Source of the DNA: Bolinopsis microptera
Lineage: Eukaryota > Ctenophora > Tentaculata > Lobata > Bolinopsidae
DNA: 64,000 bases
Direction of reading: 5' to 3'
Assembly (NCBI RefSeq): GCF_026151205.1
Contig: NC_087074.1
Span: forward strand, 14,440,167 to 14,504,166
The notes below the pieces were generated by a model. That model was not told the origin of the DNA and ran no database searches. It saw only the letters and a list, made by a program, of their open reading frames with translations. The position numbers were made by a program, and so were the translations under genes. Positions 1 through 64,000 of the stretch are shown here, one piece after another (positions within the stretch are counted from its first letter, which is position 1; every line of letters begins with the position of its first letter).

Positions 1-304
1 TGGCCATTTTCTTTTGTTCATCTGTCATTGCTGCGCGCCTGGCCTTTTCCTTTAAACGCTTTTGCTCTTTTTTTGCATTGCGTTCAGGGGTTGTCATAGA
101 TGCCATAGTTGACGACTTTCGAGATCGTTCTTTTTGTTGAAGTTTTGTGAGCTCTGTGGTGGTCATAGAGTTCCGAGCTTGAGACATTTGAGATCGTTGT
201 TTTTGTTGGAGTTGTGTGAGCTCTGTGGTGGTCATAGTTGCTCGCTTTTGAGACTTTCGATGACAATCATACTGAAGATGTTGTGAACGCTGTGGGCTTG
301 TCAT
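1..304 (-). other. STPR-like 23-residue repeats (probable DNA-binding domain, runs off window)
   Basis: Four successive units of exactly 23 residues, each starting Met-Thr: MTSPQRSQ, MTTTELTQ, MTTTELTK and MTTPERNA, then a fifth begins MTDEQKKMA at the edge. The units are rich in Arg, Lys and Gln. A 23-residue basic period is the definition of the STPR (score-and-three peptide repeat) domain first known from silkworm FMBP-1, which binds DNA. Assignment rests on period and composition, not an alignment. Confidence 0.6.
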
Positions 305-3300
305 AAAAGCACGATGCTGCTGCATTCGAATACGAGCAGAATATCGATCTTTATCTTTTTGAAGCTCTTTATCAGCCATATTAGAAAGAGTGTCACATTT
401 CATAGAGGAATCCGTTTCCTTCTTCTTTTTAACAGTTGAAGCATAAGAGTCATTTTCGGTATATGGGGTCAAAAGAGTGGGACTTTCTACAGAGCTACCA
501 TTGTGACAGTCATAATATGGTCTATACTCCTGTGATTCGTGCAATTCAGTGTCATCAATGAAATTGTCCATATCATCTGGCGAAGCTGTACAATTATGGG
601 AGTTGTCAGACTCTTGGGATACATGACCTTCTTCATCTTGAGCTTCATTGTCGATGAAAGGATTGTTATGTCGACCGCCACCATACATTAGTGAACGAGA
701 TTGTATAGTGGTGTTACTAACGTTGTAGGAAATAGATGGTGCATATACAGAAGATGATGAGGACACCCCGGTCCCCTCAGTCATATCAGTGATAAGGGGT
801 TCCGTAGGATGAGTGGCAGATAATGACACCCCGGTCCCGTCAGTCATATCGGGGGTGCAGGGTTCCATAGGATGAGGAAGAGATGATGACACCCCGGTCC
901 CTTCAGTCTTATCGGGGATGCAGGGAAGCAGTGGCAGACGGTGACAGCCGGTAAGTGTTATAAAAGGTGCAGGGATCCGAAGAAAAAGTGGCAGATGACA
1001 AAGCTCAGTAGAAATAGGGTTGTGGCTCACAATAGGTGTTTGAAGAACGGAGGATGATGATGACAAATGTATCCGGTTATTCTCATCAGATGGTGACACC
1101 CCTTCAGTCTTATCGAGGGTGGTGGGCTTTAATGAAGCAGGGCCGGATGACGACACCCCTTCAGTCTTATCGAGGGTGGTGGGCTTTAATGAAGCAGGGC
1201 CGGATGACGACACCCCTTCAGTCTTATCGAGGGTGGTGGGCTGTAATGAAACAGGGCCGGATGAGGACACCCCTTCAGTCTTATCGAGGGTGGTGGGCTT
1301 TAATGAAACAGGGCCGGATGAGGACACCCCTTCAGTCTTATCGAGGGTGGTTGGCTTCGATGAAACAGGGCCGGATGACGACACCCCTTCAGTCTTATCG
1401 AGGGTGGTGGGCATTAAAGAAACAGAGCCGGATGAGGACACCCCTTCAGTCTGATGGAGGGTTTTGGGCTTTAATGAAACAGGGTCGGATGACGACATCC
1501 CTTCAATAGATCTCGGCTTAAGCGTTCTGAAAGTAAGACTGAAACGGTAGCCTTGGCATACACCAGAGGTACTTCCGTTTGCTATACGATGGAAGTACGC
1601 TAACTGTGACTCAGGATCCATAACAAACAAAGAATTAGACAGAAGCTGCTGACTGAAGGAAGGGCGGTTCCTTTTACACGTGGCAAAGTCCATGTACCGT
1701 GTAGCACCAATTGATAGAGTCGCTATTTTGGCAGATTTGTCCAAGTGCCGTTCATCGTCCTTATGATATGGTAAGATGGTAGAGGAGTCTTTATAAAAGT
1801 TGACCAATATGCTGTTAAAGTTAGCTGACAATGTAACATTAACAATGGACAAAATATTTTGTAGTATAGGCTCTGAGTGAATGGGGATAGGATTTAGATG
1901 TTTAGTAGCCCTGTTGTAAACATATCTATCTTTGCCAAAAAGAAGAACCTGCGATGAGTTCATACCCTGTCTAATAAAAAGACCTTGTTTCACTTTAGAC
2001 AGTAAAAGTTCCTCAATATGTTTTGCGATATGCACAGGGAGTAGATCTTTGTAATAAGCCAGCCTTGTATAAAGCCATTTCGGACACTTCGACGAAATAT
2101 ATGAGGCAGGTGCAGGTGTTGGTGCAGCAGGAGCAGGTGCAGCTGGAACATGAACTGGTGTGGGTGAAGCAGGAGTAGATGCAGGCGTATCAGGCGCAGG
2201 TGCAGCATGAGCTGGTTTTGGTGCAGCAGGTGTAGCAGGAGCAGATGGAACAGGTGCAGGAGAAGCATGTGCAGCAGATGAAAAAGGTGCAGCAGATGGA
2301 ACAGGTGCAGCAGATAGTGAAGGTGCAGCAGATAGAACAGGTGCTGGAAGAGCAGGTGCAGCAGATGGAACAGGTGCAGCAGATGGTGAAGGTGCAGCAG
2401 ATGGAACAGATGGAACAGGTGCAGCAGATGGTGGAGGTGCAGCAGATGAAACAGGTGCAGGAGAAGCAGGTGCAGCAGATGGAACAGGTGCAGCAGATGG
2501 TGGAGGTGCAGCAGATGGAACAGATGGAACATGTGCAGGAAGAGCAGATGCAGCAGATGGAACAGATGGAACAGGAGCAGCAGATGGTGGAGGTGCAGCA
2601 GATGGAACATGTGCAGGAAGATCAGATGCAGCAGATGGAACAGGTGCAGCAGATGGTGGAGGTGCAGCAGATGAAACAGATGGAACAGGTGCAGGAAGAG
2701 TAGGTGCAGCAGATAGAACAGGTGCAGGAGAAGTAGTAGATGGAAAATCATCCGGAGTTAAGTCCCACAAGCTATCAGACCGATCAGAAAATTGTGAGGG
2801 TAAAGGGGACACAGGGATCAGTGAACTGTCTACTAGATAACGGAGATGAGTGGGGATACTAGCAAAACCATTAAAATAGCAGTGAATGTTAGCCTTAACA
2901 ATCTTTTTAAACAAAATGTTACCTGTGTAGCTGAAATGTAAATTATCCGTACGCTGTATGTAATTGAAAGCATCATTAGGAGTAATGTGAAAAGGGTTAG
3001 AAACTAATACAAAATTAAATTTATTACGTAAAGAAACCAATTCAGCGTTAAAAGCATTAATTTTAGAAAGAAAATGTGACCTTTGACAATTAGGATAATC
3101 AAAACGAGGCAAAACAATATTCACAAAAACAATAGCCTTCGGAAACTTATGATGCACACAGTTTATAAGGTCAGTAAACATTTCTGCAAACGTTACACTA
3201 TCACACGAACACCTACCTTTTATATTGTTAGTTCCCACCATGACGTAGACAGCATCTATCTGCGGCAGTTTCCGAGGATTGATGTTGGTAACCTCGTCTG

Positions 3301-4626
3301 CCACGTGCTGGGTGTCCATACCACGGCAAGAAAAAACATGTAGCCCACGGTATGATTTCGGATATAAACGTGTAGGTTCTTCGGGACGTTCGGAATCAAT
3401 GTATTTAACCATTGAATCTCCTAGAACCACAACCTGAACAAAATTGATTTGTCAATAATCGTGTAATGTAAAAACATAAGTAGAAGTAAGAGTGTAAGTT
3501 GTAATAACTAATACTTCTACATCTGTTGGGGTTTACTGTAAAAAAATTTAGAAAATGTGGCTAGACATGTACATATTATAGTAAAATCATAACTTTTATT
3601 TACTCACGTTTTTATCCGTAAAGACGAACTCCTCAGGAGAGAAGCTGGCGGTGTTGCACTTAAACTGTACGGGTCCCGGGTTAGTTTCCACATCGCCTGA
3701 TAGTATAAGGCACATCCTGGACCAAACAACAGAAGAAGACAAATCACCAGCCATAGCGTTGACGAGCAGTTCAAGAACCAGGATGGCAGGACTAGATGGC
3801 AATAGGCCAGCATCCTCGAGGTACTGCAACTGAGCGCTAGCAGCTTTAACTGTTGATGTCAAATAAATTAATTGAGCCGAAACCAGATTATAAATTAAAT
3901 TTAATGTTGACATGATGTTAAGGTTGCAACAACTTTGAAAAATGAACTCCAAATAAAATTCAACACTCAACACAGCTCCTGAAGCCAAAACCAAGGTGTT
4001 CTGTGGTTGAAGAGCGACCACGAACAGCTGTTGAGGTTTCATTATAACCGTCCACAGATTGGGTGAAGAGAGCAGACGACCTATAAATAGGATTGCTATT
4101 TATTATACAATGATATCTTCAACAAACAATCTAATCGAGCTCATAAAAGCTTAAGGAAACGAAACGTAGCAGATGTGCAATTTCAACCTTCAACAAACTC
4201 ACCATAACCAACAAGAACTCCAGTGTTCATCGACGACGCAAACATCAGCACAACCAGGACAGAAGTAGCCGCTAAAGCTCCCCGCACGAAGAATGTTCTC
4301 GTGAAGGTGTAGAATGAGCTGACACCGTAATCAGAGTGCTTGTAAACGAACGTCAGTCGATTGAATAATAACCAGATATGTACATTATGACAAAAGTAAT
4401 ATTGCACATTAACCAAACTCCTAGAGGTAAAATCTATTGCAGGCAATAGTACTTGGTTTCCAAAGTAACACAATGCCATACAAAACATATCAAAACAATC
4501 CAAGAAAAACCCTGTAACAGCCACATTTACCTCGTCAAAACAAATGTCATATTTAATTAATTTATCTGGTGCTAAGTCGGTGGAACATCCCATAACAAAT
4601 AAAATGATTAACAACTTGTACTTCAT
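1..4626 (-). CDS. Mosaic gene: TM leader - 2A - SGNH hydrolase - AlkB dioxygenase - STPR-like repeats (left end open)
   Basis: Three exons read on the minus strand: 4626-4203, 3978-3608 and 3433 to the window edge. Splice phases agree (1, then 0), with GTGAGT donors at 4202 and 3607 and acceptors TTCAG at 3979 and 3434. The third exon is one frame without a stop for about 1,144 codons. Domain order: a 243-residue hydrophobic leader starting with a signal-like MKYKLLIILFVMG; a 2A motif ending NPG|P at residue 244; an SGNH hydrolase from residue 266; an Ala/Pro-rich linker; an AlkB-like 2OG-Fe(II) domain; 19-residue repeats; and, at the edge, 23-residue STPR-like repeats. The start is the first ATG of the exon 1 frame. 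Known: 2A and SGNH (esterase) modules occur in non-LTR retrotransposons. Inference: this is the front part of a large mobile-element polyprotein; a Helitron-type Rep/helicase or another core may follow beyond position 1. No core enzyme is visible, so a host gene is possible. Confidence 0.75.
1095..1503 (-). repeat. 57-bp tandem repeat encoding 19-residue units
   Basis: About seven copies of a 57-bp unit, each encoding VSSSGPVSLKPTTLDKTEG with few substitutions. More diverged Thr/Ser/Pro repeats continue to about 745. The unit is divisible by three, so copy number can change without breaking the frame. The run follows the AlkB domain directly and looks like a disordered Ser/Thr-rich spacer. 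Confidence 0.85.
1520..2095 (-). other. AlkB-like 2OG-Fe(II) dioxygenase domain of the mosaic gene
   Basis: Core residues are intact. An NSILVNFYKD strand precedes PYHKDDE, where His (1763-1765) and Asp (1757-1759) form the HxD iron site. A distal His lies in AYFHRIA (1589-1591). The 2-oxoglutarate-binding Arg pair appears as RFSLTFR (1526-1546), the R-x5-R signature of AlkB, and the SIGATRY strand is also typical. Known: AlkB enzymes remove alkyl groups from DNA or RNA bases. Inference: the element may use it to repair or demethylate its own nucleic acid, as proposed for AlkB in some plant RNA viruses. Confidence 0.85.
2105..2745 (-). repeat. Ala/Pro/Ser-rich coding minisatellite (linker)
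   Basis: About 640 bp of short units related to GCAGCAGATGGAACAGGT on the plus strand. In the gene frame they encode a flexible linker of APVPSAAPPPSAAP-type sequence between the SGNH and AlkB domains. Because the unit length keeps phase, antisense and alternate frames are also open here; those frames give His/Leu- and Gln/Met-rich shadows that I do not treat as genes. Confidence 0.85.
2908..3433 (-). other. SGNH/GDSL hydrolase domain of the mosaic gene
   Basis: The domain opens with VVVLGDSMVKY (block I, nucleophile Ser 272). Block II Gly lies in FSCRGMD, block III is VGTNN (Asn 334), and block V is DNLHFS (Asp 428, His 431). All four SGNH catalytic blocks are present in the usual order and spacing over about 175 residues, so the enzyme looks competent as a lipase/esterase-type hydrolase. 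The substrate cannot be told. Esterase domains of this fold are known in ORF1 of CR1-group retrotransposons and in some tyrosine-recombinase retrotransposons. Confidence 0.85.
3671..3712 (-). other. 2A ribosome-skipping peptide coding motif
   Basis: The second exon encodes LILSGDVETNPGP, which matches the 2A consensus D-V/I-E-x-N-P-G-P exactly. Known biology: the ribosome fails to form the Gly-Pro bond, releasing the upstream product and restarting at Pro. Here it would separate the membrane-type leader (residues 1-243) from the SGNH/AlkB product starting at Pro 244. The surrounding frame also ends in a hydrophobic stretch before the motif, as in other 2A sequences. Activity itself is not shown by sequence. 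Confidence 0.85.
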
Positions 4627-5094
4627 TAAATTACGGTGAAAAGTTTGATAATTTAAATTAAAAAGAATGTAAACGTAACGTGGCGTGTAATTTGCGGAAA
4701 GATTAAACTATGTTGCGTGGTGATTAAATGGCATTAACGTGACGTCACGAGAGTCCAAGTAGACCCATAGAGCCATAGTACGTCTGTAGGAAGTACAATT
4801 CATAAGTGATTAAATTTCTGCGCGCGCGCGCGGTTTTTTCGTTGCATAGTAACGAACGGAAGCAAGGAACACGACATATATTTGACCCACCTACCGCAAT
4901 CCCCAAAATCCACGTTTTTCTGCAAAAACGTCCATTCGTAACCTTCCACTTTATATTTTTTCAAAATGGTGGATGGAAAAAATTTCTTTTTGTGCCGGGT
5001 TATCAGCATTTAAACCATCTACCGACTTAACTAAAGTTAACTGTGTACGGAACTCATTATTTACCAATTACCAGTGACATTTTCTTAATTTCAG
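4627..5094. promoter_or_regulatory. Intergenic region upstream of the mosaic gene, with a CRE-like site
   Basis: A perfect palindromic TGACGTCA (CREB/ATF-type site) sits at 4740-4747, about 115 bp upstream of the mosaic gene start. A (GC)n stretch at 4820-4832 could form Z-DNA. No coding exon is visible on either strand, so the region may hold the minus-strand promoter. Regulatory use is inference only. Confidence 0.3.
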
Positions 5095-6388
5095 GCACTC
5101 AAAAAGGATCCGAGGAAAATTAGTCTTGTTGAAGTATTTCACTCCCAGATACCAGACAGTAAACAGGAAGAAATAGCGGCTGATCTAATGAATATCAATG
5201 GGCGTATCAAATTCAAGTGCCTTATCTATGGGATTTGATGCAGCAGGTATGTACTATGTTTGGCACCAAGTATATCGAAGACTATTTTAAACACCTTTAA
5301 ACAGTCTATTTCAAACAAATGGATTCTCTGTGTTAAACACGGTTAATAGTAAATTTGATAAAAATGTATATTCTTTAGGGATCCAATACGTCATCCATTC
5401 GAAAATGGCTCGTACGGCAGAGGATTTCATCCAGATGATTGGTGGGTAATGTGAAACAATTAAGTTATTTGTAATAATTTTATAGAGCGCTCTGCACATA
5501 TACCTCTATTAAAGGTTTAACGAGCTTAATTGTCTTAAACGTTGCTTTTAAATCTCAGGTCGGGCTGGGAGAAGTGCAAATCTAAAGGCGATATGTATTG
5601 TATTTACGCACAACAAGACCAGGGATATGGACGGAGAGTGTCTTATGTACCGCGACCAGAATGGAACTTGCCGTAGGATAATACTTTCTGGTACCTTTAA
5701 AGGTAAAACAGCTCCACGTAGTCCTACAATTGAAAAAGTAATTCAATATCCTTTATTAGTTGGCAAATACTTTAAGTTCTCCAACGGCATTTGAAATCAC
5801 AAATTTTAGCCATTTCAATGCGATGACATAAATGTCATCAGGGGTACTCAAGCTGCATGACAACGTTTATAACGATACTTGCTGCGATGTTTGCAGACCT
5901 TCCCAAGACCCACTCATTCAAAGACTCCGGGAACGGAATAACAAGCAGAGGAGGTCGGATGTAGACATGCGTGAGTACTGAGTACTTAGTACCGAATGTT
6001 TTAAATCACATGTAATATTTGTAACGTTCATGCCTAAACTGTGCTTTTTTGCTTTTATCGAAAAGTAATGATAACAACAACAACAATTTAACTTTGTGCT
6101 CCTGCGAGTGGTGAAGAATCAGCAATATCAGTCATAATATTTCCAGAACCTAGACGCACAGTGACGAAAGAAGATAGGGAGTTCTTTGCAAAAGCGTTAG
6201 CATGCCAGCTGACGTCCTATAGTGACAACAGACCCTTTCTGGACTGTGAACTCACGGAAGGAGTCATTAAACTTCTCACAAATGAATGCGGACATATTTT
6301 TAATTTGGAAGATATTGAAGGAATCGTGCCAGGACTGAGTGACAGGGTGAAGAGGGACATACTAGTTATAACTAACGATATATTTTAA
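5095..6388 (+). pseudogene. RecQ-family helicase, last five exons, probable frameshift in the first
   Basis: Exons 5095-5246, 5379-5441, 5559-5702, 5842-5970 and 6147-6388 all have GT/AG borders and phase 1 between the last four. The first gives VEVFHSQIPDSKQEE, like the RecQ helicase C lobe. The next two give IQYVIHSKMAR and, across the splice, FIQMIGRAGRS (motif VI). Exon 3 ends CRRIILSGTFK and exon 4 carries TCCDVC, matching the RecQ zinc-binding cysteines. The last exon ends ITNDIF-stop and looks like a small C-terminal domain. Near 5220-5240 the first exon meets a TGA unless one base is adjusted (reading then continues SMGFDAA). The DEAH helicase core is not in the window; it may lie left of the mosaic gene or be lost. 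Either a decaying gene or one split by the mosaic element. Confidence 0.7.
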
Positions 6389-17942: not shown

Positions 17943-20900
17943 TCACACACCATCAGTTCCATACCGGTTTTGAGCTCTTAGAAGTGACTGTTTAAGTAAA
18001 TTCTTGACAGATCCGCATGTAGAGGTGAAATTTAACGGGCCAACTTTACGGAATTCGTTCCAAAGCCATGCAGATTTATAAATAAATTGATTAGTTGGAG
18101 AGGGTGTAATGAACAGATTATCTTTCCTATTTGATATGTTGAATAAGTAGTATAACGAAATTGGTACTCGTGACTTAATGATCTTGAAAAGTTCCATTAA
18201 ACAACGGTATCGGTACAGGTTCTCTGTAACAAGTAATTCATGTTTTGTGAATAGAGGCTTAGTGGACTCTTTAACATAGAATTCAGATCCTAGACGTTGA
18301 GAATTAATTGGTCTTGCTCTAGCACATGTCTTGAATTTGTCTACATAAGCTTCATAGTCTCCAAATAGAATCCTGATACACTTCTTTTGAGTAATAAATA
18401 GCGGTTTTAACTGATTATTGGGAATACCTCCCCAGACAGAAATAGCATAACCTAGGTGTGATTCAAAGAGGGAATGATATATTTGCTTATATAGTGATTC
18501 TGGTAAGCATTTCTTAATACGGTAGATACGTCCACAAGCACTTCTTAGTTTCTTGTTGAGGGATGAAATATGTGGTTTCCAGCTCAATTTATCGTCCATG
18601 ATTACTCCGAGAAATTTTGTCTGACTTACACGTTTAATTATTTTGTTATTATTGGACAAGTTTTGGCTATTTATATCGGCATCTAATTCGTTATTATTAC
18701 GTTTAGAGGGAGAAAAATACATGTAACAACACTTCTTTACATTAATGTGCAGTAGGTTAACTCCCATATACTTGTTTACGGCCTGTAGTACTTCATTAGC
18801 CAATTCGTATACTTTATTTCTCGAATCGGCAGCGACAAATATATTAGTATCGTCTGCAAATAAGACAAATTTACCCTTTTTAGTTATATTGCATATGTCA
18901 TTGATGTACAGTAGGAAAAGTAGAGGTCCTAATACACTACCCTGAGGGACCCCGAATTCAACCGGTAATTCATCAGATTTGGTATCCAAAACGTTTACAA
19001 ATTGTTTCCTATTAGACAAATAACTAGAGATAAGATTCAGAGCATTTCCTCTTATGCCATAGTTGTTTAACTTTGTAGTTAGTTTACAGTGGTCTAGAGT
19101 GTCAAAGGCTTTTGAGAGATCGATAAAGACCCCTAGGACATGTTGCTTTTTACTAATTAACGATTCTATATGTTCTACAGAGTAGTTCAGTGCATGGCTG
19201 GTGGAGTGTCCTTTTCTAAGCCGAACTGGTTTTCATGTATTATACCCCTTGGAAGTAAGGAAACTATAGAGCCGCTTATATATTAACTTTTCTAGAATTT
19301 TCCCGAATACAGGTAGAGTTGATACTGGTCTATAGTTTTCTAAAAGCTGTTCATCTTCTTTTTTGTAAATGGGGCTGATTCTCCCCAGTTTTTAATTCAT
19401 CGGGAAAGTGGCCTTCTTGCATGCATTTATTAAAGTATCTAGCTAAGTACGGTGCAGTAATTTGACACGACTTCTTGATCACATGAATAGGTATGTCACT
19501 AGATTTTCCCGTTTTTTAGTTCGTTTATGATCTCTTTAATCTCAATACAGTCACAATCACAAAGAAAAATACTGGACGTAACTGATGTGGGCAGGTAATC
19601 AGTAAATGACGGCAGGGAATTTATTCTTAAGAAGTCACCAGAGTAAGCTTCGTTCAAGTTAGCTGCAATAGAGGCAAAGTATTTATTGAACTCATTTGCA
19701 ATTACACGCCGATTAATCACACGCTCGTTATTTATCACAAAGTTAGGTTTAATCTCACGTCTCTTCTTACCACGCAGTTCATTAATTATCTGCCAAGTTT
19801 TCTTACTATCTCCAGCGCATTCTGTAATCTTAACACCATGATACTTACGTTTGCAGAATTAATAAGGTGGTTTAATAACTTCCGGTGTGCCTTAAATTCT
19901 TCATGACGTGTTACTTTATTTGTACAATTAAAACAAAGGGTAAGACAGTCTGCATGGTTGGTTGAAGAGGCGTTGAGGCATTTCTTCTTAACTGCCTTTT
20001 TCCACAGGTCATAAAGCTCATGTTTTCTATTTATAGAGGCAATCAGGCCTGATGTAATCCATGGATTATTCTTAGCAGTACGTTTAGAACACTTAGGCTG
20101 GTTTAGTTTACATGCACTGTCTAGTTGATGATTAAATACAGTGAAAAAAATTACTGAAGTCTTCTGGTGGATCACTAGTTAATTCACTGTCTAGTACTTC
20201 CACAAATCTGTCCACATTTTTTGCACAGTAGTCATAGTACTGGAAATAGTTTTGTTCATGAACCTCAGTACTGACTAGGGGTGAGTTGAATATGTTAAAT
20301 ACAGCATGGTGGTGACTGATGCAGGTACTAATTGTTCCAGAGCAGATAGAGTTCTCTATGTTGTTGGTGAGTATGTTGTCAATGCATGATTCGTTACATC
20401 CTGGTTTATGATGCGTGGAAGTAGAAATAAGTGGTGATAAACCTAGACCTAGAATAAGGTTTTCAAAGTCTTGAACAAGTTTACTGTTTTCATCATGGAG
20501 ATTAATGTTAAAGTCACCTAGTATGTAAACATTCTTTTTTGGGCATGATTCAATAATTTTTCTAAGTTCATTTAGTGCCTCTGAGGAGTCCCCACTAGGA
20601 GGACGGTACAGTACTCCTACATGTACAGGTTCATCATGTTGAATAGTAATAAATAGGGTTTCAAGATTTTTGGTTACCCATGATAATTCTTCGTTTACAA
20701 CTCCGTTTAAGTTCGTCCTTTAAGTACAATGCTACTCCACTTCCCTTTGCTTTATTGATATGTTTGTCCTGATAGAAACAATTGTACCCCTCTAGATGGT
20801 AGACAGTGCTTTCCTCTATTCCAATATTGGTTTCAGCAAGTCCAATAATTTTAAATTTTTCGGCTAATCGGTTTAGTTCCATGCTAAAGGCATCAAAATT

Positions 20901-21269
20901 TGTTTTATTACCATCTATGTTCTGGAAAATCGTGGAGCAGTTGCTTGCAAAACACGGTTTGATATGTGTGTTAAAGTCCTTAATTGTATAGGATCTACAG
21001 TTTTCCAAAGCATCGGACATCTTTTGGATACATGGGTCACAGTCATTAACTTCAGGATTGGTCATTACTTTAAAAGGATTATATTTTTTAGATATGGAAT
21101 GTTTACACTCGTTGCAGTAAAAGTTGTCATTGATAACTTGCGCTTTGGAAGGATTAAAACATTTGGCATGGAGAATACTATTGCAGTTAAAACATTCAAA
21201 GAGGGGAAGCCCTAATCCAATATTCTTCAGACAGTGACTACAAATTTCCTTTTGAACACGATTAACCAT
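17943..21269 (-). pseudogene. Non-LTR retrotransposon (Jockey/CR1 group) encoding PHD finger, endonuclease and reverse transcriptase, frameshifted
   Basis: Read on the minus strand. It starts with a C4HC3 PHD-type finger (CSHC, FECFNC, HAKC, YCNEC) at about 21245-21115. An APE-type endonuclease follows, with IIGLAETN, then LGDFNIN and a late HH motif, spanning 20930-20190. The reverse transcriptase has VFIDLSKAFDTLDH, FGVPQGSVLGPLLF and VLFADDTNIF (catalytic Asp pair) before a C-terminal thumb region, ending ...YGTDGV-stop at 17943. The frame changes between blocks (19786-20175, 19499-19738, near 19218 and 19250), so the copy is dead, although long stretches of sequence are well preserved. 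PHD domains are known in CR1-group elements, usually in ORF1; here finger and endonuclease share one frame. Confidence 0.8.
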
Positions 21270-21455
21270 ACCTGTTAACCGTTCCGTCCCCTCCGCTGCA
21301 GTGCAGGCGGGCCACTAGCCACGTTGCTGTATAGCCGTCCATTGACTTTGCCGATGTGTTTTCTTCTGTCTTCTCCGCCATTTAACCTAATAAATACAGA
21401 TTGTTTAATGAGTCCAGCAAGGACTCTTGCCCCTAACTTGTTAGTGGCAGTATGG

Positions 21456-23658: not shown

Positions 23659-26518
23659 AAAAGCTATATTCATAATTTTTGTGAAACATAATTATGAATA
23701 GTGTAGTTTATCGCAGCACTCAGGCCAAAGCGAAATATGATGAAACAAAAATATCTAAGTTTATGGATGACTTTGATGGATACCTGGACAATCTTCTGCT
23801 TAAAACTGGATCTCCAATTATTTGTGGTGACTTTAATTTCCATGTTGAAGACATATACAATAATGTTGCCCAGAACTTTATTGCTCTTTGTGAGAGCAAA
23901 GGCTTCCTTCAGCATGTCGACTCTCCTACTCACATCTCCGGCGGGACACTGGACTTGTTATTTACTCTAGGCTGTGTAAGTGACTCATTGTCTGTAACAG
24001 ATATGATGGTAGAGACAAGCACTGGAACCAGCTCTGATCACTATCTAGTAAGTTTTCAGGTCCCAGTCACATTCGATTTTCATAAAGCTCGTACATATGA
24101 AGAAAAAGATGTCAGAGAGCTAAGCAAAATTGACATCGATAAGTTCAGGGAAGATCTGTTTTGTTCAGAGCTTAACCTTTCTGAATATCAATCCTTAGAC
24201 GAGGCTGTGAACCTTTATCAAAATGTCCTTGAACAGGTGCTAGACAAACATGCCCCACTTATTACGAAACGATTTACTGCTGAAAAGTCTGATTTTTGGG
24301 ATAATAAATGTCAAATTGCTGTCAGAGAGAGGAGAAGGGCAAAACGAAAAGCCAAAAAGTATCCAGAGAATGATGAGTTTAAAACTACTCATTTTGAAAA
24401 ATGTGTTGACGCAGAAATCACTATCAATCGAGCTAGGGATGGCTACTATGATAAACAGCTCAGTTCTTGCAAAGGAGACTCGAAAGGGACCTATAAAGTC
24501 ATAAATAAACTTTTAGATAAGGAATATGGCTCCAACAAATTGCCAAATGGTGAAGATATCGAAGTGGCTGCCAAACTCAAGACTTTCTTCGATCAAAAAG
24601 TAAAGACCATTTACTCTAATATTGAGAAGGAAATTCAAAACACTTCCCTAAACGGTCAAGGTACCAAGGACTCTACTTCGATAGATAATGCAAAGTGTAG
24701 ACTTAATCAGTTTAAGGAAGTCTCATTATCAGACCTTGAAACCTTAATTAGGAGTCTTCCCAATAAATCAAGCGTACTCGATGTCATACCAATGTGGTTC
24801 TTCAAGAACTGCTTACCCGAGCTTCTCCCAATCATCCATTACATCGTGAATGAATCACTAAGAGTCGGAAAGTTTCCCTCTGCCCTAAAAGAAGCATCTA
24901 TTAGGCCTGGACTCAAGAAACCTACCTTAGATGTTGATGAGCTGAAAAACTATCGACCGATTAGCAATCTAACTTATCTGTCCAAAATACTAGAAAAAGT
25001 AGTTCATTGCCAATTAAATGAATATGCTGATGTCAACAACCTGTTTTCCCCATATCAATCAGGCTATAGAAAATTCCATAGTTGTGAAACTGCAGTTACC
25101 AAAATACATAATGATATTCTAATGATGATTGACAGCAAATCGAATGTTGTGCTTCTACTCTTAGATCTATCAGCTGCTTTCGACACCATAAACCATAACC
25201 TCCTTCTTACGAAACTCAAGAATGCGTATGGTATTACAGAACTAGCACTCAGCTGGTTACAATGTTACCTTAATAATCGCACATTCAAGGTTAAAGTAAA
25301 AAAAGCCACATCTTCTGAAGGCTATCTGGATATTGGTGTACCTCAAGGATCCATTTTAGGACCGCTACTGTTCATATTGTATACCAGAGATCTTGAAGAA
25401 ATTGTCACAAAATATGGTTTCTCGATACATTTGTATGCAGATGACACACAGGTGTACTTTACTTTTGATGTTCACAGTTCTAATCCTGATTTAACAGCTG
25501 TGAAAAATTGCTTTCTGGAGATAAAGCAATGGATGACAGTTAACTTCCTAAAACTGAATGACGAAAAAACAGAGTTCATTGATATAGGACCATATGTCAG
25601 CCCAATCCAGACAATGGATTTAGGAGACCTCTCAATCTGCCCTGTTAGCAAAGCCAAGAACCTGGGATTCCTTTTCGATCACCAAATGAATCTGGACTCT
25701 CAAATAAATGCTGTCTCCAAAGTATGTTATTTGAATCAAAGGGACTTAGCAAGAATCGGTTCGAAGCTTTCCCATGACCTAAAAGTTCAGTTAGTTCACT
25801 CCAATATCCTCTGTTTCATAGACTACTGCAACTCAGTCTATTATGGAATAACAGAAAAGAATCTTCATAAGCTACAAAAGATACAGAACAATGCTGCTAG
25901 ATTTATCTTTGGTCTTTACGGAAAAAAGATACGTGAACCTATCATGCCTTACCTCAAAAAGCTCCACTTTCTGCCTGTTCGGTTCAGAATTAAGTTCAAA
26001 ATATCACTTCTGGTCTTCAAGTGTCTTAATAACATAGCCCCTCAGTACTTACAAGGACACGTCAATCTAAGGGAAGTACGAAGACAAAGTTCCAGACTAG
26101 ATGATGACTTTTATTTGTTGAAAGTTCCTCCTGCTCCTCATTTCAGACGAACAGATGCTGCATTTATGTTTTGTGGACCAAAAATTTGGAATGAATTACC
26201 CTACTCAGTGAGATCATTATCATCTGTAGAATGTTTTAAAAATGCCCTAAAGACGTTTTATTTCCAACAAGCTTTTGATAATATTTCTAATATTTGTCCA
26301 TAATGTCTGAACTGATATGAAAGTGCATAATTTTGGTAACTTCATACAAATATTTGTTCATAAAATCTGAACTGTTTAAAAAGTCCATAATCTTGCTATT
26401 TCAACACTAAGTCTCGCTTGAATGACTTTAATGTACATCTTTGTTGGGTAAATTTTAATGTCGAAGCGTGTAATAAATGTTAGAATTTATTTATTTATTT
26501 AATATAGCTTTTGTGGAC
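23653..26518. repeat. Hairpin split by a LINE insertion
   Basis: GTCCACAAAAGCTATATT (23653-23670) is the perfect reverse complement of AATATAGCTTTTGTGGAC (26501-26518). Within the left side, ATTCATAATT pairs with AATTATGAAT (ending 23699). Removing the LINE restores an inverted repeat with arms of about 25 bp and a short loop. The LINE therefore landed inside one arm of a foldback sequence. Confidence 0.75.
23694..26303 (+). mobile_element. L2-like non-LTR retrotransposon, 5'-truncated, frame intact
   Basis: An 869-codon open frame. It enters partway through an APE-type endonuclease (ICGDFNFH near residue 44; TSSDHYLVSF near 110) and has a full reverse transcriptase: SPYQSGYRKFHSCETA, LLLDLSAAFDTINH, GVPQGSILGPLLF and HLYADDTQVYF (catalytic Asp pair), with a normal C-terminus. 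The sequence resembles the L2/CR1 group. The first ATG and next codon probably come from the target DNA, since the element seems to begin at about 23700; the N-terminal endonuclease half is missing. A 3' region with AATAAA and a TTTA-rich tail ends at 26500. No stops or shifts, so insertion is probably young. Confidence 0.85.
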
Positions 26519-27373: not shown

Positions 27374-47567
<20,194 letters not shown>

Positions 47568-48290: not shown

Positions 48291-48341
48291 ATTATATATA
48301 TAATATAATGTCTCCACAGTGCTGCTGATATAGCCTTAAAA

Positions 48342-50786
48342 GTGAAAAAGCCTCCCAAAAATTCTGCCCGTAAGAAATGGTTCGACCCACAAGTCAACTC
48401 CTCGCGGCGGAACCTAAATAGGCTAGCAAACCGGCTTGGTAGTAAGCACTGTAACAGTATCCTCAGACGAGAATACTTTAAGCAACGCAACAAGCATAGC
48501 AATTATGTAAACAGTAAGAAAGTAGCTTTCCTTAAGAAGTTAAATGAAGCTATAGAAGAAGGTCACATACTCGACTGGAAAAAATTTAAACGGCTTAAAC
48601 AAGAACATGACACTAGCCCCTTACTTGACAAATTTGATTTAGCTAGCTTCCATAACTTCTTTGCATCCCTTTATAAAAAACCAGACCAGGAGCCAGATCT
48701 CACTCACCACAATCACAAACATTACCCTGAACCACCAGATCTGGATATCCTAAATAAGCTCATGTCAGAATCTGAAGTGACCTCTGCCATCAAAAATCTC
48801 AAAAAAGGTAAAAGTTGCTCAAACGACTTGATATCCAACGAGATGCTTCAGAGCGTAACCCCGCTTTGTCTCAAAGCCATCCTCAAAAACTTCAACCACT
48901 CACTGGTCTCCGGTTACTATCCATGGCACACCAGCATCATTACTCCTATTTACAAGTCTGGCAACCCTTTCAGCCCGGATAACTACAGAGCAATAGCTGT
49001 TGGTAGCTGTATGGGTAAACTGTTTTCTAGCATCTTACTTGAGCGTCTCCTGTACTTCAAAAAGCTCTACTGCCCTGACCCAAAAGAACAACTAGGGTTC
49101 TCGAAGGGTGCTCAAACAAATGACCACGTTTTTACCCTTAAGACAGTCATTGACAAATATACCAAGGTTAAGAAAGCTCGCCTCTATGCATGCTTTGTTG
49201 ATCTAAGAAAGGCCTTTGACACTGTATGTAGGGACCTCCTTCTGCACAAAATCACATGCCTTGGAATAACTGGAAACTTCTTCAATTGCCTAAGTGATAT
49301 GTATAGAAACTCAATAGCTCATATAAAAATCTCCAAACTCTTGTCCCCTAATATTGACATTGGAAAAGGAACAGAGCAGGGACACCCCCTATCACCGGAC
49401 CTTTTTAAAATCTATATCAACGACTTGTCATCTCTCCTGAAATCTGTTGGTGATTATCCTATTCTAGCTGACGTCCTAATATCACATCTGCTCTGGGCTG
49501 ACGATCTTGTCCTACTTGCCCTAAGTCCCAAGGCCTTGCAAGACAATACAAACATCCTATTCGACTTCTGTAACTCTATGGGCCTTGAAGTAAACATTAA
49601 AAAAACCAAGATTCTCATATTCTGCCCTCCTAAAAGAAAACAATCCTATGAAACATTCATTTTGGGAGGCCAGCCCATCCAACACACCGAAAAATACTGC
49701 TATCTTGGCATTATATTCCACAGAAATGGATCTTTTACAGCAGCAAATACTGAACTGAGGGCCAAGGCTCTCCGTGCTCTCTATGGCCTCAAAGGCAATA
49801 TCGTCAAAGATGCCCTCTCTCACCGTTCCCTAAACATTCTATTTGACTCTCTAATAAAACCGATACTGCTCTATGGCTGCCAAATCTTATGTCCTCACTC
49901 AAAAACCATGAGATACCTCTCCAAAACAGATAGCAAAGCCAACCCCCAGCATACTCTCAGGTACATCTCACAAGACCACTATGAAAGATTCCACCTTAAG
50001 TTTATCAAGTGGTCCTTGTCTGTCCATTCAAAAGCATCAAATATAGGCTGCTGGGGTGAAAGTGGGCGCCACCCCCTCTTCTTTGAAGCCTGCAAACTTG
50101 CAATAGATTTCTATAGTCGCCTTGAAAGCACTGAAAATGAACTTCTCTCCGCTGCATTTCACGAGCAGATTATGCTGGGCCTTCCTTGGTACACCAACAT
50201 CTCTAATCTTCTCACCAAATATAACTTCCCCCACTCATCCTCTTCAAAATCCAAGCTCTCTACCCAAATCAGTCACAACATGAGGGAAGAATTTGTGGAT
50301 ACCTGGAAATCTGCCAAGGCATCCTCACCTAAATTAGAATTCTACAATCAAATTAAACATGATTTTGAACCAGAAACATACTTAGGAGTGGTTAAGATCC
50401 CCGATGCTCGGAAAAGCTTAACAAGGTTTCGTATTAGCTGCCACAATCTTTACATTGAGAGGGGCCGTTACGAAACCCCCCTAGTACCAAGAGAACATCG
50501 ATGGTGCACTTTTTGCTTTTTCAGCAAGGGGCTTAAGCCTATTGAGGACGAAATTCATGTTCTAACTGACTGTTTACTCTACTCCTCAGTTAGAGAAAAA
50601 TTTAACTTCCATCCCAAAAATATTACTGACCTAGCCGGTTTGCTATCCGATAAAACACTAGACCCTACAAAATTTACTGCCACAGCAAGAGCAATCCATT
50701 CAATTCTCTCTGTGAACGAAAATTTCACAGCCTACTATAAGAGCCCAGATTTCTACTCAAATACTGGCCAATGCATAATGCTATAG
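48342..50786 (+). mobile_element. Non-LTR retrotransposon with intact 814-codon reverse transcriptase frame, 5'-truncated
   Basis: The frame is open from 48309 (first possible start codon GTG at 48342). It lacks the endonuclease and begins in the linker (KKWFDPQVNSSRRNLNRL). RT blocks: STPIYKSGN-type ITPIYKSGNPFSPDNYRAI, ACFVDLRKAFDTV, GTEQGHPLSPDLFKIYINDL and LLWADDLVLLA (catalytic Asp pair). A C-terminal HRWCTFC ... HVLTDC motif may bind zinc. The 3' end at 50955 is a tail of five TTGTATCC units, as in CR1/L2-type microsatellite tails. The clade is not certain (Trp before the Asp pair and GHPLSP differ from L2). The near-identical fragment at 28158-29110 suggests recent activity. Confidence 0.85.
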
Positions 50787-55252: not shown

Positions 55253-55287
55253 ATAATTTGCTGGTATTAATTTGATTGCTTCCAGGA

Positions 55288-58200
55288 GACTGCTACAGTT
55301 ACATTACTGGGAACAGTAGTATACTCGCCACACTGTGCTACTACGGTAACATTACTGGGAACAGTAGTATACTCGCCACACTGTGCTACTACAGTTACAT
55401 GACTGGGAACAGTAGTATACTCACCACACTGTGCTACTACGGTTACATTACTGGGAACAGTAGTATACTCGCCACACTGTGCTACTACAGTTACATTACA
55501 GGGAACAGTAGTATACTCGCCACACTGTGCTACTACGGTTACATTACTGGGAACAGTAGTATACTCGCCACACTGTGCTACTACAGTTACATTACTGGGA
55601 ACAGTAGTATACTCGCCACACTGTGCTACTACAGTTACATTACTGGGAACAGTAGTATACTCGCCACACTGTGCTACTACGGTTACATTACTGGGAACAG
55701 TAGTATACTCGCCACACTGTGCTACTACGGTAACATTACTGGGAACAGTAGTATACTCGCCACACTGTGCTACTACGGTTACATTACTGGGAACAGTAGT
55801 ATACTCGCCACACTGTGCTACTACAGTTACATTACAGGGAACAGTAGTATACTCGCCACACTGTGCTACTACGGTTACATTACAGGGAACAGTAGTATAC
55901 TCGCCACACTGTGCTACTACAGTTACATTACTGGGAACAGTAGTATACTCGCCACACTGTGCTACTACAGTTACATTACAGGGAACAGTAGTATACTCGC
56001 CACACTGTGCTACTACGGTTACATTACTGGGAACAGTAGTATACTCGCCACACTGTGCTACTACGGTTACATTACAGGGAACAGTAGTATACTCGCCACA
56101 CTATGCTACTACGGTTACATTACTGGGAACAGTAGTATACTCGCCACACTGTGCTACTACAGTTACATTACTGGGAACAGTAGTATACTCGCCACACTGT
56201 GCTACTACAGTTACATTACTGGGAACAGTAGTATACTCACCACACTGTGCTACTACGGTTACATTACTGGGAACAGTAGTATACTCGCCACACTGTGCTA
56301 CTACAGTTACATTACTGGGAACAGTAGTATACTCGCCACACTGTGCTACTACAGTTACATTACTGGGAACAGTAGTATACTCACCACACTGTGCTACTAC
56401 GGTTACATTACTGGGAACAGTAGTATACTCGCCACACTGTGCTACTACAGTTACATTACTGGGAACAGTAGTATACTCGCCACACTGTGTTACTACAGTT
56501 ACATTACTGGGAACAGTAGTATACTCACCACACTGTGCTACTACGGTTACATTACTGGGAACAGTAGTATACTCGCCACACTGTGCTACTACGGTTACAT
56601 TACAGGGAACAGTAGTATACTCGCCACACTGTGCTACTACAGTTACATTACTGGGAACAGTAGTATACTCGCCACACTGTGCTACTACGGTTACATGACT
56701 GGGAACAGTAGTATACTCACCACACTGTGCTTCTACGGTTACATTACTGGGAACAGTAGTATACTCGCCACACTATGCTACTACGGTTACATTACTGGGA
56801 ACAGTAGTATACTCGCCACATTGTGCTACTACAGTTACATTACAGGGAACAGTAGTATACTCGCCACACTGTGCTACTACAGTTACATTACTGGGAACAG
56901 TAGTATACTCGCCACACTGTGCTACTACAGTTACATTACTGGGAACAGTAGTATACTCGCCACACTGTGCTACTACAGTTACATTACTGGGAACAGTAGT
57001 ATACTCGCCACACTGTGCTACTACGGTTACATTACTGGGAACAGTAGTATACTCGCCACACTGTGCTACTACGGTTACATTACAGGGAACAGTAATATAC
57101 TCGCCACACTGTGCTACTACAGTTACATTACTGGGAACAGTAGTATACTCACCACACTATGCTACTACGGTTACATTACAGGGAACAGTAGTATACTCGC
57201 CACACTGTGCTACTACAGTTACATTACTGGGAACAGTAGTATACTCGCCACACTGTGCTACTACGGTTACATTACTGGGAACAGTAGTATACTCGCCACA
57301 CTGTGCTACTACGGTTACATTACTGGGAACAGTAGTATACTCGCCACACTGTGCTACTACGGTTACATTACTGGGAACAGTAGTATACTCGCCACACTGT
57401 GCTACTACGGTTACATTACTGGGAACAGTAGTATACTCGCCACACTGTGCTACTACAGTTACATTACTGGGAACAGTAGTATACTCGCCACACTGTGTTA
57501 CTACAGTTACATTACTGGGAACAGTAGTATACTCACCACACTGTGCTACTACGGTTACATTACTGGGAACAGTAGTATACTCGCCACACTGTGCTACTAC
57601 AGTTACATTACTGGGAACAGTAGTATACTCGCCACACTGTGCTACTACAGTTACATTACTGGGAACAGTAGTATACTCACCACACTGTGCTACTACGGTT
57701 ACATTACTGGGAACAGTAGTATACTCGCCACACTGTGCTACTACAGTTACATTACTGGGAACAGTAGTATACTCGCCACACTGTGTTACTACAGTTACAT
57801 TACTGGGAACAGTAGTATACTCACCACACTGTGCTACTACGGTTACATTACTGGGAACAGTAGTATACTCGCCACACTGTGCTACTACAGTTACATTACT
57901 GGGAACAGTAGTATACTCGCCACACTGTGCTACTACGGTTACATTACTGGGAACAGTAGTATACTCGCCACACTGTGCTACTACAGTTACATTACTGGGA
58001 ACAGTAGTATACTCGCCACACTGTGTTACTACAGTTACATTACTGGGAACAGTAGTATACTCACCACACTGTGCTACTACGGTTACATTACTGGGAACAG
58101 TAGTATACTCGCCACACTGTGCTACTACGGTTACATTACAGGGAACAGTAGTATACTCGCCACACTGTGCTACTACAGTTACATTACTGGGAACAGTAGT

Positions 58201-59654
58201 ATACTCGCCACACTGTGCTTCTACGGTTACATGACTGGGAACAGTAGTATACTCGCCACACTGTGCTACTACAGTTACATTACAGGGAACAGTAGTATAC
58301 TCACCACACTGTGCTTCTACGGTTACATTACTGGGAACAGTAGTATACTCACCACACTGTGCTACTACGGTTACATTACTGGGAACAGTAGTATACTCGC
58401 CACACTGTGCTACTACGGTTACATTACTGGGAACAGTAGTATACTCGCCACACTGTGCTACTACAGTTACATTACTGAGAACAGTAGTATACTCGCCACA
58501 CTGTGCTACTACAGTTACATTACTGGGAACAGTAGTATACTCGCCACACTGTGCTACTACAGTTACATTACTGGGAACAGTAGTATACTCGCCACACTGT
58601 GCTACTACGGTTACATTACTGGGAACAGTAGTATACTCGCCACATTGTGCTACTACAGTTACATTACAGGGAACAGTAGTATACTCGCCACACTGTGCTA
58701 CTACAGTTACATTACTGGGAACAGTAGTATACTCGCCACACTGTGCTACTACAGTTACATTACTGGGAACAGTAGTATACTCGCCACACTGTGCTACTAC
58801 AGTTACATTACTGGGAACAGTAGTATACTCGCCACACTGTGCTACTACAGTTACATTACTGGGAACAGTAGTATACTCGCCACACTATGCTACTACGGTT
58901 ACATTACTGGGAACAGTAGTATACTCGCCACATTGTGCTACTACAGTTACATTACAGGGAACAGTAGTATACTCGCCACACTGTGCTACTACAGTTACAT
59001 TACTGGGAACAGTAGTATACTCGCCACACTGTGCTACTACGGTTACATTACAGGGAACAGTAGTATACTCGCCACACTGTGCTACTACAGTTACATTACT
59101 GGGAACAGTAGTATACTCGCCACACTGTGCTACTACAGTTACATTACTGGGAACAGTAGTATACTCGCCACACTGTGCTACTACAGTTACATTACTGGGA
59201 ACAGTAGTATACTCGCCACACTGTGCTACTACAGTTACATTACTGGGAACAGTAGTATACTCGCCACACTGTGCTACTACGGTTACATTACTGGGAACAG
59301 TAGTATACTCGCAACACTGTGCTACTACGGTTACATTACAGGGAACAGTAATATACTCGCCACACTGTGCTACTACAGTTACATTACTGGGAACAGTAGT
59401 ATACTCGCCACACTGTGCTACTACAGTTACATTACTGGGAACAGTAGTATACTCGCCACACTGTGCTACTACGGTTACATTACTGGGAACAGTAGTATAC
59501 TCGCCACACTGTGCTACTACAGTTACATTACTGGGAACAGTAGTATACTCGCCACACTGTGCTACTACAGTTACATTACTGGGAACAGTAGTATACTCAC
59601 CACACTATGCTACTACGGTTACATTACAGGGAACAGTAGTATACTCGCCACACG
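55288..59654 (+). repeat. 48-bp minisatellite array 1, about 91 units
   Basis: Unit TGCTACTACAGTTACATTAC + TGGGAACAGTAGTATACTCG + CCACACTG. Because 48 is divisible by 3, one plus frame is open for 1,461 codons (16-residue unit YYSYITGNSSILATLC, one N-glycosylation sequon each). The second plus frame is also largely open, and the minus frame (VPSNVTVVAQCGEYTT) is interrupted by TAG at units with CTATGC. Variants recur in 144-bp (three-unit) blocks, e.g. CTCACC at 56235, 56380, 56524 and again at 57532, 57676, 57820, a higher-order repeat. Coding status is undecided. Confidence 0.95.
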
Positions 59655-60561
59655 GTACTAACTGTCGAAAAATCGTGGTACTAACTGTTTTTTGGTATAT
59701 AGAATAAGATACCCACCAAGAAATTGCTTTTTTTTTAAAGAGCTCATTTAAACTTTAAAGGAAGACTTTTAAAAATTTTAAAAATTTAAAAAAAACCCAA
59801 AAAAAAAACTTTAAAAAACCTCAAAACCCATTCCCAAAATTGAAATTTGAGGTAAAATGGGTTTTTTGGGGTTAGCACCCCCTTTAGTACCATGTACTAA
59901 CTGTTTTTCTGGAAAATGGGCAGTAGACCCACCAGTTAGTATCATGTACTAACTGTGTTGTTAGAAGAAAAAATGACCCACCCACCAACGTCATGTCCGG
60001 TACTAAGTGTATGATCCCCCCCCCCCCCCCCCCCCCCCCGTTGTAGGCGCTTTTTTGAACCATTTACAAGCGATTATAAGCGCTTATAAGTGGGGTGCAA
60101 TTTAGCTGTTTATAAAGCGCAAATAAAGCGCTTATAAGCGCTTTTTTAATTGGGTCAGGAAAACGCTATATTACATCTTATAGCAATAAAAAGCGCTTTT
60201 TTGAATTATGACATCAATTATAGTCGATTATAAGCGATTTTTTTTTAACCGTTTATAATCGTAAAAAAATCGATTGTAAACGGGTTTTTTAAAGAAAACG
60301 CCGAGAAAGCGCTCAATAAGCGATTATCAGCGCCGATAATAAAATATCGTTTATGGAAACTTGCCGGTATGTTATCATTTGAGTACACCCTATATAACTA
60401 TAATACGTGCTACCAAATACAGGTCTCTATTATTTTAATAACATGAAGGTGCACAGAAATTCGAGTCGTTATTTGTTAATTTATGCATATTTAAATTACT
60501 CTTATAGCCTACATTGAAAGCCTAATTATGATCACAAAGACACCGGACTCCACTGTTCAAA

Positions 60562-62195: not shown

Positions 62196-62230
62196 ATAAT
62201 TTGCTGGTATTAATTTGATTGCTTCCAGGA

Positions 62231-63296
62231 GACTGCTACAGTTACATTACTGGGAACAGTAGTATACTCGCCACACTGTGCTACTACAGTTACATTACTG
62301 GGAACAGTAGTATACTCGCCACACTGTGCTACTACAGTTACATGACTGGGAACAGTAGTATACTCGCCACACTGTGCTACTACAGTTACATTACAGGGAA
62401 CAGTAGTGTACTCGCCACACTGTGCTACTACGGTTACATTACTGGGAACAGTAGTATACTCGCCACACTGTGCTACTACAGTTACATTACTGGGAACAGT
62501 AGTATACTCGCCACACTGTGCTACTACAGTTACATTACTGGGAACAGTAGTATACTCGCCACACTGTGCTACTACGGTTACATTACTGGGAACAGTAGTA
62601 TACTCGCCACACTGTGCTACTACAGTTACATGACTGGGAACAGTAGTATACTCGCCACACTGTGCTACTACAGTTACATTACAGGGAACAGTAGTGTACT
62701 CGCCACACTGTGCTACTACGGTTACATTACTGGGAACAGTAGTATACTCGCCACACTGTGCTACTACAGTTACATTACTGGGAACAGTAGTATACTCGCC
62801 ACACTGTGCTACTACAGTTACATTACTGGGAACAGTAGTGTACTCGCCACACTGTGCTACTACGGTTACATTACTGGGAACAGTAGTGTACTCGCCACAT
62901 TGTGCTACTACAGTTACATTACTGGGAACAGTAGTATACTCGCCACACTGTGCTACTACGGTTACATTACTGGGAACAATAGTATACTCGCCACACTGTG
63001 CTACTACAGTTACATTACTGGGAACAGTAGTATACTCGCCACACTGTGCTACTACGGTTACATTACTGGGAACAGTAGTATACTCGCCACACTGTGCTAC
63101 TACGGTTACATTACTGGGAACAGTAGTATACTCGCCACACTGTGCTACTACGGTTACATTACTGGGAACAGTAGTATACTCGCCACACTGTGCTACTACA
63201 GTTACATTACTGGGAACAGTAGTATACTCGCCACACTGTGCTACTACAGTTACATTACTGGGAACAGTAGTATACTCGCCACACTGTGCTACTACA
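62231..63296 (+). repeat. 48-bp minisatellite array 2, about 22 units
   Basis: Same unit as array 1 with its own variants (GTGTAC in place of GTATAC at several units, absent from array 1). The plus frame runs on past the array into a hydrophobic tail (LPVCSIAAAAFLLYYMIY) and a stop at 63386; a second plus frame ends in a hydrophobic tail too. Confidence 0.95.
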
Positions 63297-64000
63297 GCAG
63301 CAGCATGCTCGGTATTATCACTCTACCTGTATGTAGCATTGCTGCTGCTGCATTTTTGTTATATTATATGATATATAAATACACTTAAAGTGTGATAATG
63401 TTTATAACGTGTAAAATTAAGTCATCAGAAGCAAACATACTGAACATATTATGTTGTAGACCTAGCGTGGAGTTCGCCAAGCCAGATAGAGCTGTCGCCT
63501 TGATTTATTATATAGGTTTATTATTAAAGTGACAATTTGATAAATCATGACCTTTCAAAGCCATACTTCACTGAAATGTTATCGGAGTGTATCGCATAAC
63601 TAGGCTACTAGCTCAGATATTATAGTAATTATGACTTATATTACATAATATGTTATGTATAACACGTACTTATAATATGTTACTATGTTACTCACCATGT
63701 CCCCGTTCACTGTAAACTACTGTAGTTTCTGTACCTTGAATATCATGTGGCAGCTAGCCGCTAGGTGCTTCTTATATGTAAGAGGACATGATGGAGGCCT
63801 GTATTAATTGCATTATTCAATTACATATCTATCTATAACTAATCAACACACTTTCCATAGACACGTACCGTTTCTGGGATATTACACAAAGTTCGTCTCT
63901 GCATAGTCCATCTGTCAGGAGCCACAACAAATAATATTCAAACACTCCGGCTGTTTGCTGTCTGCAGGTGGTAGTCGTGAATCTTGATATTATATTAAGT
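63297..64000. other. Right flank, no gene recognised
   Basis: Begins with an imperfect inverted repeat of CAG/CTG triplets (63296-63352). The remainder is AT-rich with no exon of RSK or other genes seen. Confidence 0.5.

Follow-up and report, generated by a model that had tools for sequence, protein, structure and literature searches.

A Helitron2-type element of Bolinopsis microptera predicted to join SGNH hydrolase and AlkB dioxygenase domains to its Rep/helicase protein

What kind of gene joins a membrane-type leader, a 2A skipping motif, an SGNH hydrolase, an AlkB dioxygenase and STPR-like repeats? Such a gene lies on the minus strand at the start of a 64,000-nucleotide stretch of the genome of the ctenophore Bolinopsis microptera (contig NC_087074.1, positions 14,440,167 to 14,504,166), here called the window. 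An earlier reading of the letters alone (the sequence-only reading) proposed that it might be a new mobile-element coding system. We followed the gene past the window edge and searched the genome for its copies (264.65 Mb in 232 contigs, labelled C3, C4, C6 and so on; the window is G000:C3:14440167-14504166, and L numbers denote loci). The window feature is the 5′ portion of one Helitron, a 13,731-bp element that runs from window position 4977 to G000:C3:14431413; owing to a T run, its end coordinate may be off by about 2 bases. Left of position 1, where the sequence-only reading suggested looking for a mobile-element domain, we found a Helitron Rep and a PIF1 helicase. The idea of a new coding system gives way: a Helitron Rep/PIF1 helicase makes up the part beyond the edge, and the ends are of the Helitron2/Helentron type.

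The ends were placed by comparison with unoccupied sites. When the DNA at the 5′ end was searched against the genome, the matches fell into two classes with a common boundary. Element copies start at this boundary, and 9 further loci match the adjoining 1,123 bases of a neighbouring repeat at 98-99% identity. Beyond the 3′ end this host repeat picks up again, and in 8 of the 9 repeat loci the flanking matches are contiguous by coordinates, making these loci empty sites. Five empty sites (of the 9 loci) were read, and every one has GAAATTTTT followed directly by AAACAACAG. A second insertion, the short copy L087, also has an exact empty site: its joined flanks are covered by 46 of 47 match rows (in some cases, both arms of a single inverted repeat give a row each), and the single site read is identical across 146 joined bases. 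For a third insertion, a C10 copy, the paralogous empty site is diverged, with ATTGTT and other gaps. No target duplication was found at the insertions compared with empty sites (two exact, the third diverged). ATTTTT precedes TCC at 14/14 junctions read (the window, 7 further copies and 6 short copies). A pattern count restricted to one short family finds ATTTTT before 26 of its 32 exact 5′ ends.

The 5′ end TTTCCATCCAC recurs inverted as GTGGATGGAAA, just upstream of a stem-loop (7 bp) and of the 3′-terminal GCAATTCTTGTT. The stem is kept across copies, but its stability does not exceed that of shuffles (z -0.26 and -0.57), with 77/200 and 44/200 shuffled sequences folding as well or better. 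The 3′-end pattern has 382 genomic matches (192 + 190), against 0 for a backward control. Short copies bear their own inverted-repeat pair, with 11 of 12 matching. Those at L083-L088 are non-autonomous, with both Helitron ends and without the long coding part, and measure about 590 bp where both ends are seen.

The accessible portions of two papers (PMC4067079, PMC5148889) give as marks of Helentrons and Helitron2 elements subterminal or asymmetric inverted repeats, a 3′ palindrome or hairpin and a T-rich target, and add for Helentrons an apurinic/apyrimidinic (AP) endonuclease from CR1-type retrotransposons. As far as these descriptions reach, the present element has in common with them a single protein that combines Rep with a PIF1-type helicase, inverted repeats of the asymmetric or subterminal kind, a putative 3′ stem-loop, a T-rich target without duplication and many short non-autonomous copies. 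It differs in adding an in-frame 2A-SGNH-AlkB-STPR extension, in a C-terminal region not identified as OTU and, from Helentrons, in the AP endonuclease, which was not found among Pfam matches up to E 1 to the 2,215-amino-acid (aa) continuation. Judged by its ends and coding content, the element is a Helitron with Helitron2/Helentron-type ends, and we file it as Helitron2-type. A strict Helentron was rejected, as no endonuclease was found among those Pfam matches. A canonical Helitron1 (5′ TC, 3′ CTRR, insertion between an A and a T) was also rejected: the 5′ TCC agrees with this pattern, whereas CTTGTT at the 3′ end and the ATTTTT target do not. A single-copy host gene lacking element boundaries, which the sequence-only reading had named as the result that would count against it, is rejected by the multiple copies, exact ends and empty sites. 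The modules lie within the protein of a multi-copy element with definable ends, and the description of that protein as transposon-like holds.

The gene is probably spliced. Its three exons (Table 1) join into a single stop-free frame, 1,409 aa up to the window edge, with the leader, 2A, SGNH, AlkB and STPR-like modules at the places first assigned to them. Both introns have a GTGAGT start and a CAG end, and comparison with L043 and L044 shows the same in each of these copies; in L043 the exon-1 frame is broken by an indel. The frame, correctly called open at the window edge, continues for 2,171 residues into the sequence left of the window (L031) and ends at L031:3353. The AlkB/Rep open frame is 3,321 aa, and the conceptual protein with exons 1 and 2 is 3,580 aa. 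Several stretches of the leader are hydrophobic. In exon 3, the earliest in-frame ATG sits within the GDS motif, so a start there would drop the catalytic serine. The 2A core DVETNPGP (consensus D(V/I)ExNPGP) is also present in four other copies (L003/L043, L005, L008 and L044). In sea-urchin NLRs, a 2A sequence can double as a signal sequence, according to the available part of one report (PMC4981915).

After the 2A follow SGNH, AlkB, STPR-type repeats, DUF6570, an HUH-type Rep, a PIF1-like helicase and a C-terminal region. Pfam matches DUF6570 (8.6e-14), Helitron_like_N (8.6e-23) and PIF1 (5.7e-22) in the continuation, in the same frame. The Rep carries HLH and NYVISY, which we take to be the HUH motif and the YxxxY tyrosine pair, and the helicase carries GAGGVGKS, presumably its Walker A motif. 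The SGNH and AlkB domains had been called intact, and Pfam matches both (Table 1) with their catalytic motifs kept; the SGNH blocks GDS, GTNN and DNLH are present in the alignment. STPR repeats bind DNA. The STPR-like repeats show a clear 23-residue period (42/130 identities at shift 23, at most 17 at other shifts from 5 to 39); the window part of the protein has no match to a Pfam STPR model. At the C-terminus, Cys and His-Trp motifs that may belong to an OTU-like protease are visible by eye only; Pfam and PDB gave no match, and the model is too poor to use (predicted local distance difference test score, pLDDT, 36). NCBIfam contributed nothing beyond matches to AlkB and a RecD-type helicase, all below cut-off. 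Phage records gave no match, and plasmid records gave 12, all below 60% identity; the five listed are bacterial or cyanobacterial, at about 30-32%. What sets the element apart is an N-terminal extension that shares a frame with Rep and helicase and consists of leader, 2A, SGNH, ALKBH2/3-like AlkB and STPR-type repeats.

Table 1. Coordinates of the Helitron, its gene and its insertion site within the window
Feature	Position	Strand	Basis
Helitron, in-window portion	1..4977	-	continues beyond window to G000:C3:14431413 (L031:1114); ~13,731 bp total
5′ arm of asymmetric inverted repeat, TTTCCATCCAC	4969..4979	-	3′ arm GTGGATGGAAA directly before 3′ stem-loop, L031
ATTTTT flank of 5′ end, also in empty site	4978..4983	-	junction reads and empty sites
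Repeat hosting the insertion, as far as searched	4984..6100	.	9 other loci, 98-99%, 1,123 bases beside 5′ end
Exon 1, hydrophobic leader	4203..4626	-	frame and splice sites
Intron 1, GTGAGT...CAG	3979..4202	-	sequence, copy comparison
Exon 2, remainder of leader and 2A motif	3608..3978	-	joined frame
2A core GDVETNPGP	3671..3697	-	motif, recurs in other copies
Intron 2, GTGAGT...CAG	3434..3607	-	sequence, copy comparison
Exon 3, to window edge	1..3433	-	frame continues to L031:3353
SGNH/GDSL hydrolase domain	2921..3427	-	PF13472 (Lipase_GDSL_2), E 1.5e-8
Linker, repetitive, alanine/proline/serine-rich	2220..2733	-	sequence
AlkB 2OG-Fe(II) dioxygenase domain	1505..2104	-	PF13532 (2OG-FeII_Oxy_2) at 1526-1924, E 2.2e-21; model pLDDT 90.1
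57-base tandem repeats encoding 19-residue unit	1095..1505	-	sequence
STPR-type 23-residue repeats, continuing beyond window edge	1..307	-	self-shift identities

Is the joint frame a property of the element or of one copy? A Rep query recovered five copies at 100% (rounded), the window copy among them. It also matched two copies on C9 (58%), a fragment on C11 (56%) and a third family (52%). AlkB and Rep lie together in a long frame on C3 (3,321 aa), C10 (3,388 aa), C12 (3,366 aa) and C9 (3,226 aa), and these four copies rule out chance adjacency of the modules. Shorter joint frames are found at C12:2.47 Mb (2,459 aa) and in the other C9 copy (2,225 aa); the remaining Helitron copies are broken. 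The 52% family (C6:8448565, C10:5713283 and C10:9081213, with frames of 2,221, 2,176 and 624 aa) has no nearby AlkB among the 150 scored matches, of 732 candidates, of an AlkB query, and no match in an SGNH search in which 52/52 candidates were scored. A C4 copy (Rep 80-82%) has neither domain in those same scored matches. Both probably lack the SGNH-AlkB extension in their sequence.

The copies look mosaic. Over the C-terminal coding part (L031:3356-4102), L047-L050 and L052 are 9-15 of 747 bases off the window copy, and the AlkB dS values (L001-L008) range from 0.007 to 0.36 despite this near-uniform C-terminus. The C10 copy is closest to the window copy in AlkB and most distant at the C-terminus. 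Between the L009/L010 and L001-L008 subfamilies, AlkB is about 72% identical and SGNH only about 40%; either SGNH has evolved much faster or it has been replaced.

The HxD...H iron triad and RxxxxxR of the AlkB domain are invariant in 20/20 aligned sequences (8 Helitron rows, with L002 and L008 left out). The ratio of nonsynonymous to synonymous substitution rates (dN/dS) for AlkB is 0.09-0.31 in 43 of 45 copy pairs, some with dS near 1, indicating purifying selection. Frame-shifted L011/L012 and the fragment L019 were left out of the dN/dS sets, and the SGNH set was also without L006, a locus that cuts the domain. The predicted model has the AlkB fold, and both sequence and fold are closer to ALKBH3 and ALKBH2 than to the N6-methyladenosine (m6A) enzymes ALKBH5 and FTO. 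Such a domain would be better suited to repairing methylated nucleic acid than to erasing 5-methylcytosine. The role first suggested for this protein, self-repair or an escape from base methylation, is the hypothesis that we carry forward.

What would a Helitron do with it? Our best explanation, to which we give an even chance, is that a Helitron2/Helentron-type element shares its SGNH-AlkB part with long interspersed nuclear elements (LINEs), and that AlkB strips methyl adducts from the element's own single-stranded DNA (ssDNA) or mRNA. The mRNA would be spliced and translated, and the 2A would part a 243-aa hydrophobic, membrane-directed leader from a working protein of about 3,337 aa. Rep would nick and the helicase would peel off one strand, producing ssDNA. 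The tethered AlkB could then clear adducts of the 1-methyladenine/3-methylcytosine type from the exposed strand, or from the element mRNA, and the STPR repeats would keep the protein on DNA. ALKBH3 acts better together with ASCC3, as the accessible part of one study describes (PMC8508711). A bolder and more doubtful picture, which we offer tentatively, is a mobile SGNH-AlkB cassette circulating between Helitrons and LINE-like retrotransposons. In the Helitron it would form a one-chain repair-and-replication machine, where Rep and a PIF1-type helicase expose ssDNA that a tethered ALKBH3-like domain dealkylates, a fusion analogous to ALKBH3-ASCC3.

The domain could instead serve RNA alone, demethylating the element's own mRNA (1-methyladenosine, 3-methylcytidine or m6A) and shielding it from epitranscriptomic control. 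The AlkB of an orchid Ty3/Gypsy element bound and demethylated RNA in vitro, in the portion of that report available (PMC9289625), AlkB also sits in LINE-like open reading frames (ORFs) of this same genome, and AlkB domains of similar fold occur in RNA viruses. The nearness of fold and sequence to ALKBH3/ALKBH2 rather than ALKBH5/FTO tells against it. Moreover, human L1 is aided by m6A and suppressed by ALKBH5, according to the accessible part of PMC7873242, so removal of the mark need not help an element. We regard this as possible but on the unlikely side. Erasure of a silencing mark on element DNA has been proposed for the TET/JBP dioxygenases of fungal Helitron1 and Helitron2 elements in the part of PMC12730594 available, but the domain here is an ALKBH2/3-like AlkB (PF13532), not TET/JBP, and the same role is improbable. 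That the extension is a passenger without any role is more improbable still, and disfavoured. Helitrons frequently capture gene fragments (PMC6431247, as far as its accessible text goes) and the 52% family seems to lack the extension; against this stand the purifying selection on AlkB, including pairs with dS near 1, its intact catalytic residues and the presence of SGNH-AlkB in the Rep frame of four long copies.

Where did the SGNH-AlkB part come from? Besides the Helitrons, AlkB was found at L013-L018 and L020-L030 in multi-copy elements whose ORF1 holds AlkB and then SGNH, in a 540-aa and a 646-aa family. The 646-aa ORF1 matches AlkB (5.7e-23) and, below cut-off, GDSL (8.3e-6), and the next ORF matches Exo_endo_phos (8.3e-6). 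The 540-aa ORF1 matches AlkB (3.8e-13) and GDSL (PF00657, above cut-off); the ORF after it has a hydrophobic start, ...SILNPGP and then a short putative AP endonuclease stretch that Pfam did not confirm. No reverse transcriptase was identified beside either ORF1 in the fetched stretches, and on their sequence we call both families LINE-like. Ten further AlkB fragments (L089-L098), read over AlkB only, are mutually diverged and all keep the catalytic residues.

We infer that the SGNH-AlkB part was exchanged with a LINE-like ORF1 and was more likely taken from LINE-like elements. In a 22-row AlkB tree (without L002, which has 98.5% identity to the window copy), the Helitron AlkBs cluster with the 540-aa family at 96/89, but the row for this family sits on a long branch and the rooting is arbitrary. 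AlkB and SGNH co-occur in both kinds of element, as do NPGP motifs. Such exchange has precedents in the accessible parts of two papers: the endonuclease of Helentrons has its nearest relatives among CR1 proteins (PMC4067079), and the texim SGNH genes of fish, which are related to CR1 esterases, are linked with Helitrons (PMC4021074). Several points weigh against this origin. The domain order is reversed between the Helitron and both LINE-like families, the closest AlkB from a LINE-like element reaches only about 40% identity, and the tree has long branches and was built without host ALKBH genes. Independent entry of AlkB and SGNH into the two kinds of element, or transfer from Helitron to LINE, is accordingly not far short of an even chance.

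Elsewhere in the window, retrotransposon ORFs with reverse transcriptases (Pfam sub-cut-off) lie at 17943-21314, 23685-26303 and 48309-50786, one of them adjoining a PHD-finger-like ORF. A 346-aa minus-strand open frame at 31687-32727 resembles a seven-helix receptor by eye. A long tandem satellite at 55267-59707 and 62210-63388 has several frames open on both strands.

How new is this arrangement? CR1/L2-type LINEs with an ORF1 esterase (SGNH) were reportedly described by Kapitonov and Jurka in 2003, and 2A in non-LTR (long terminal repeat) elements reportedly by Odon in 2013. These elements resemble the present one in having an SGNH domain, there in ORF1, and a 2A, and differ in being RNA-based. 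TET/JBP in fungal Helitron1/Helitron2 elements (PMC12730594) and AlkB in an LTR retrotransposon (PMC9289625) are already known from the available portions of these papers. The fungal Helitrons are the nearest precedent: they too encode a 2-oxoglutarate (2OG)-Fe(II) dioxygenase likely acting on nucleic acid, but of the TET/JBP type, whereas here an AlkB shares one frame with Rep. As far as that survey's accessible text goes, it found no retrotransposon with TET/JBP; here AlkB occurs in LINE-like elements as well. The orchid Ty3/Gypsy element likewise has a transposon-encoded AlkB that demethylates RNA in vitro, but it is an LTR retrotransposon with a separate ORF of the ALKBH5 type (PMC9289625). 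Fish texim is also a Helitron-associated SGNH hydrolase related to CR1 esterases, but it lies next to the Helitron as a gene of its own, and the portion available does not mention AlkB (PMC4021074). Among open-licence papers, we found none that describes a Helitron with AlkB, a Helitron with STPR or a LINE ORF1 that combines AlkB and SGNH. The LINE-type ORF1s with AlkB may be no less new than the Helitron.

If the proposed role is true, a transposon that moves through ssDNA would have recruited direct-reversal DNA/RNA repair into its own replication protein. Seen beside the TET/JBP of fungal Helitrons and the AlkB of orchid Gypsy elements, this would suggest 2OG dioxygenases as a recurrent transposon asset. 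The LINE-like ORF1s with AlkB and SGNH in the same genome offer a natural comparison for asking whether base alkylation or methylation limits transposition.
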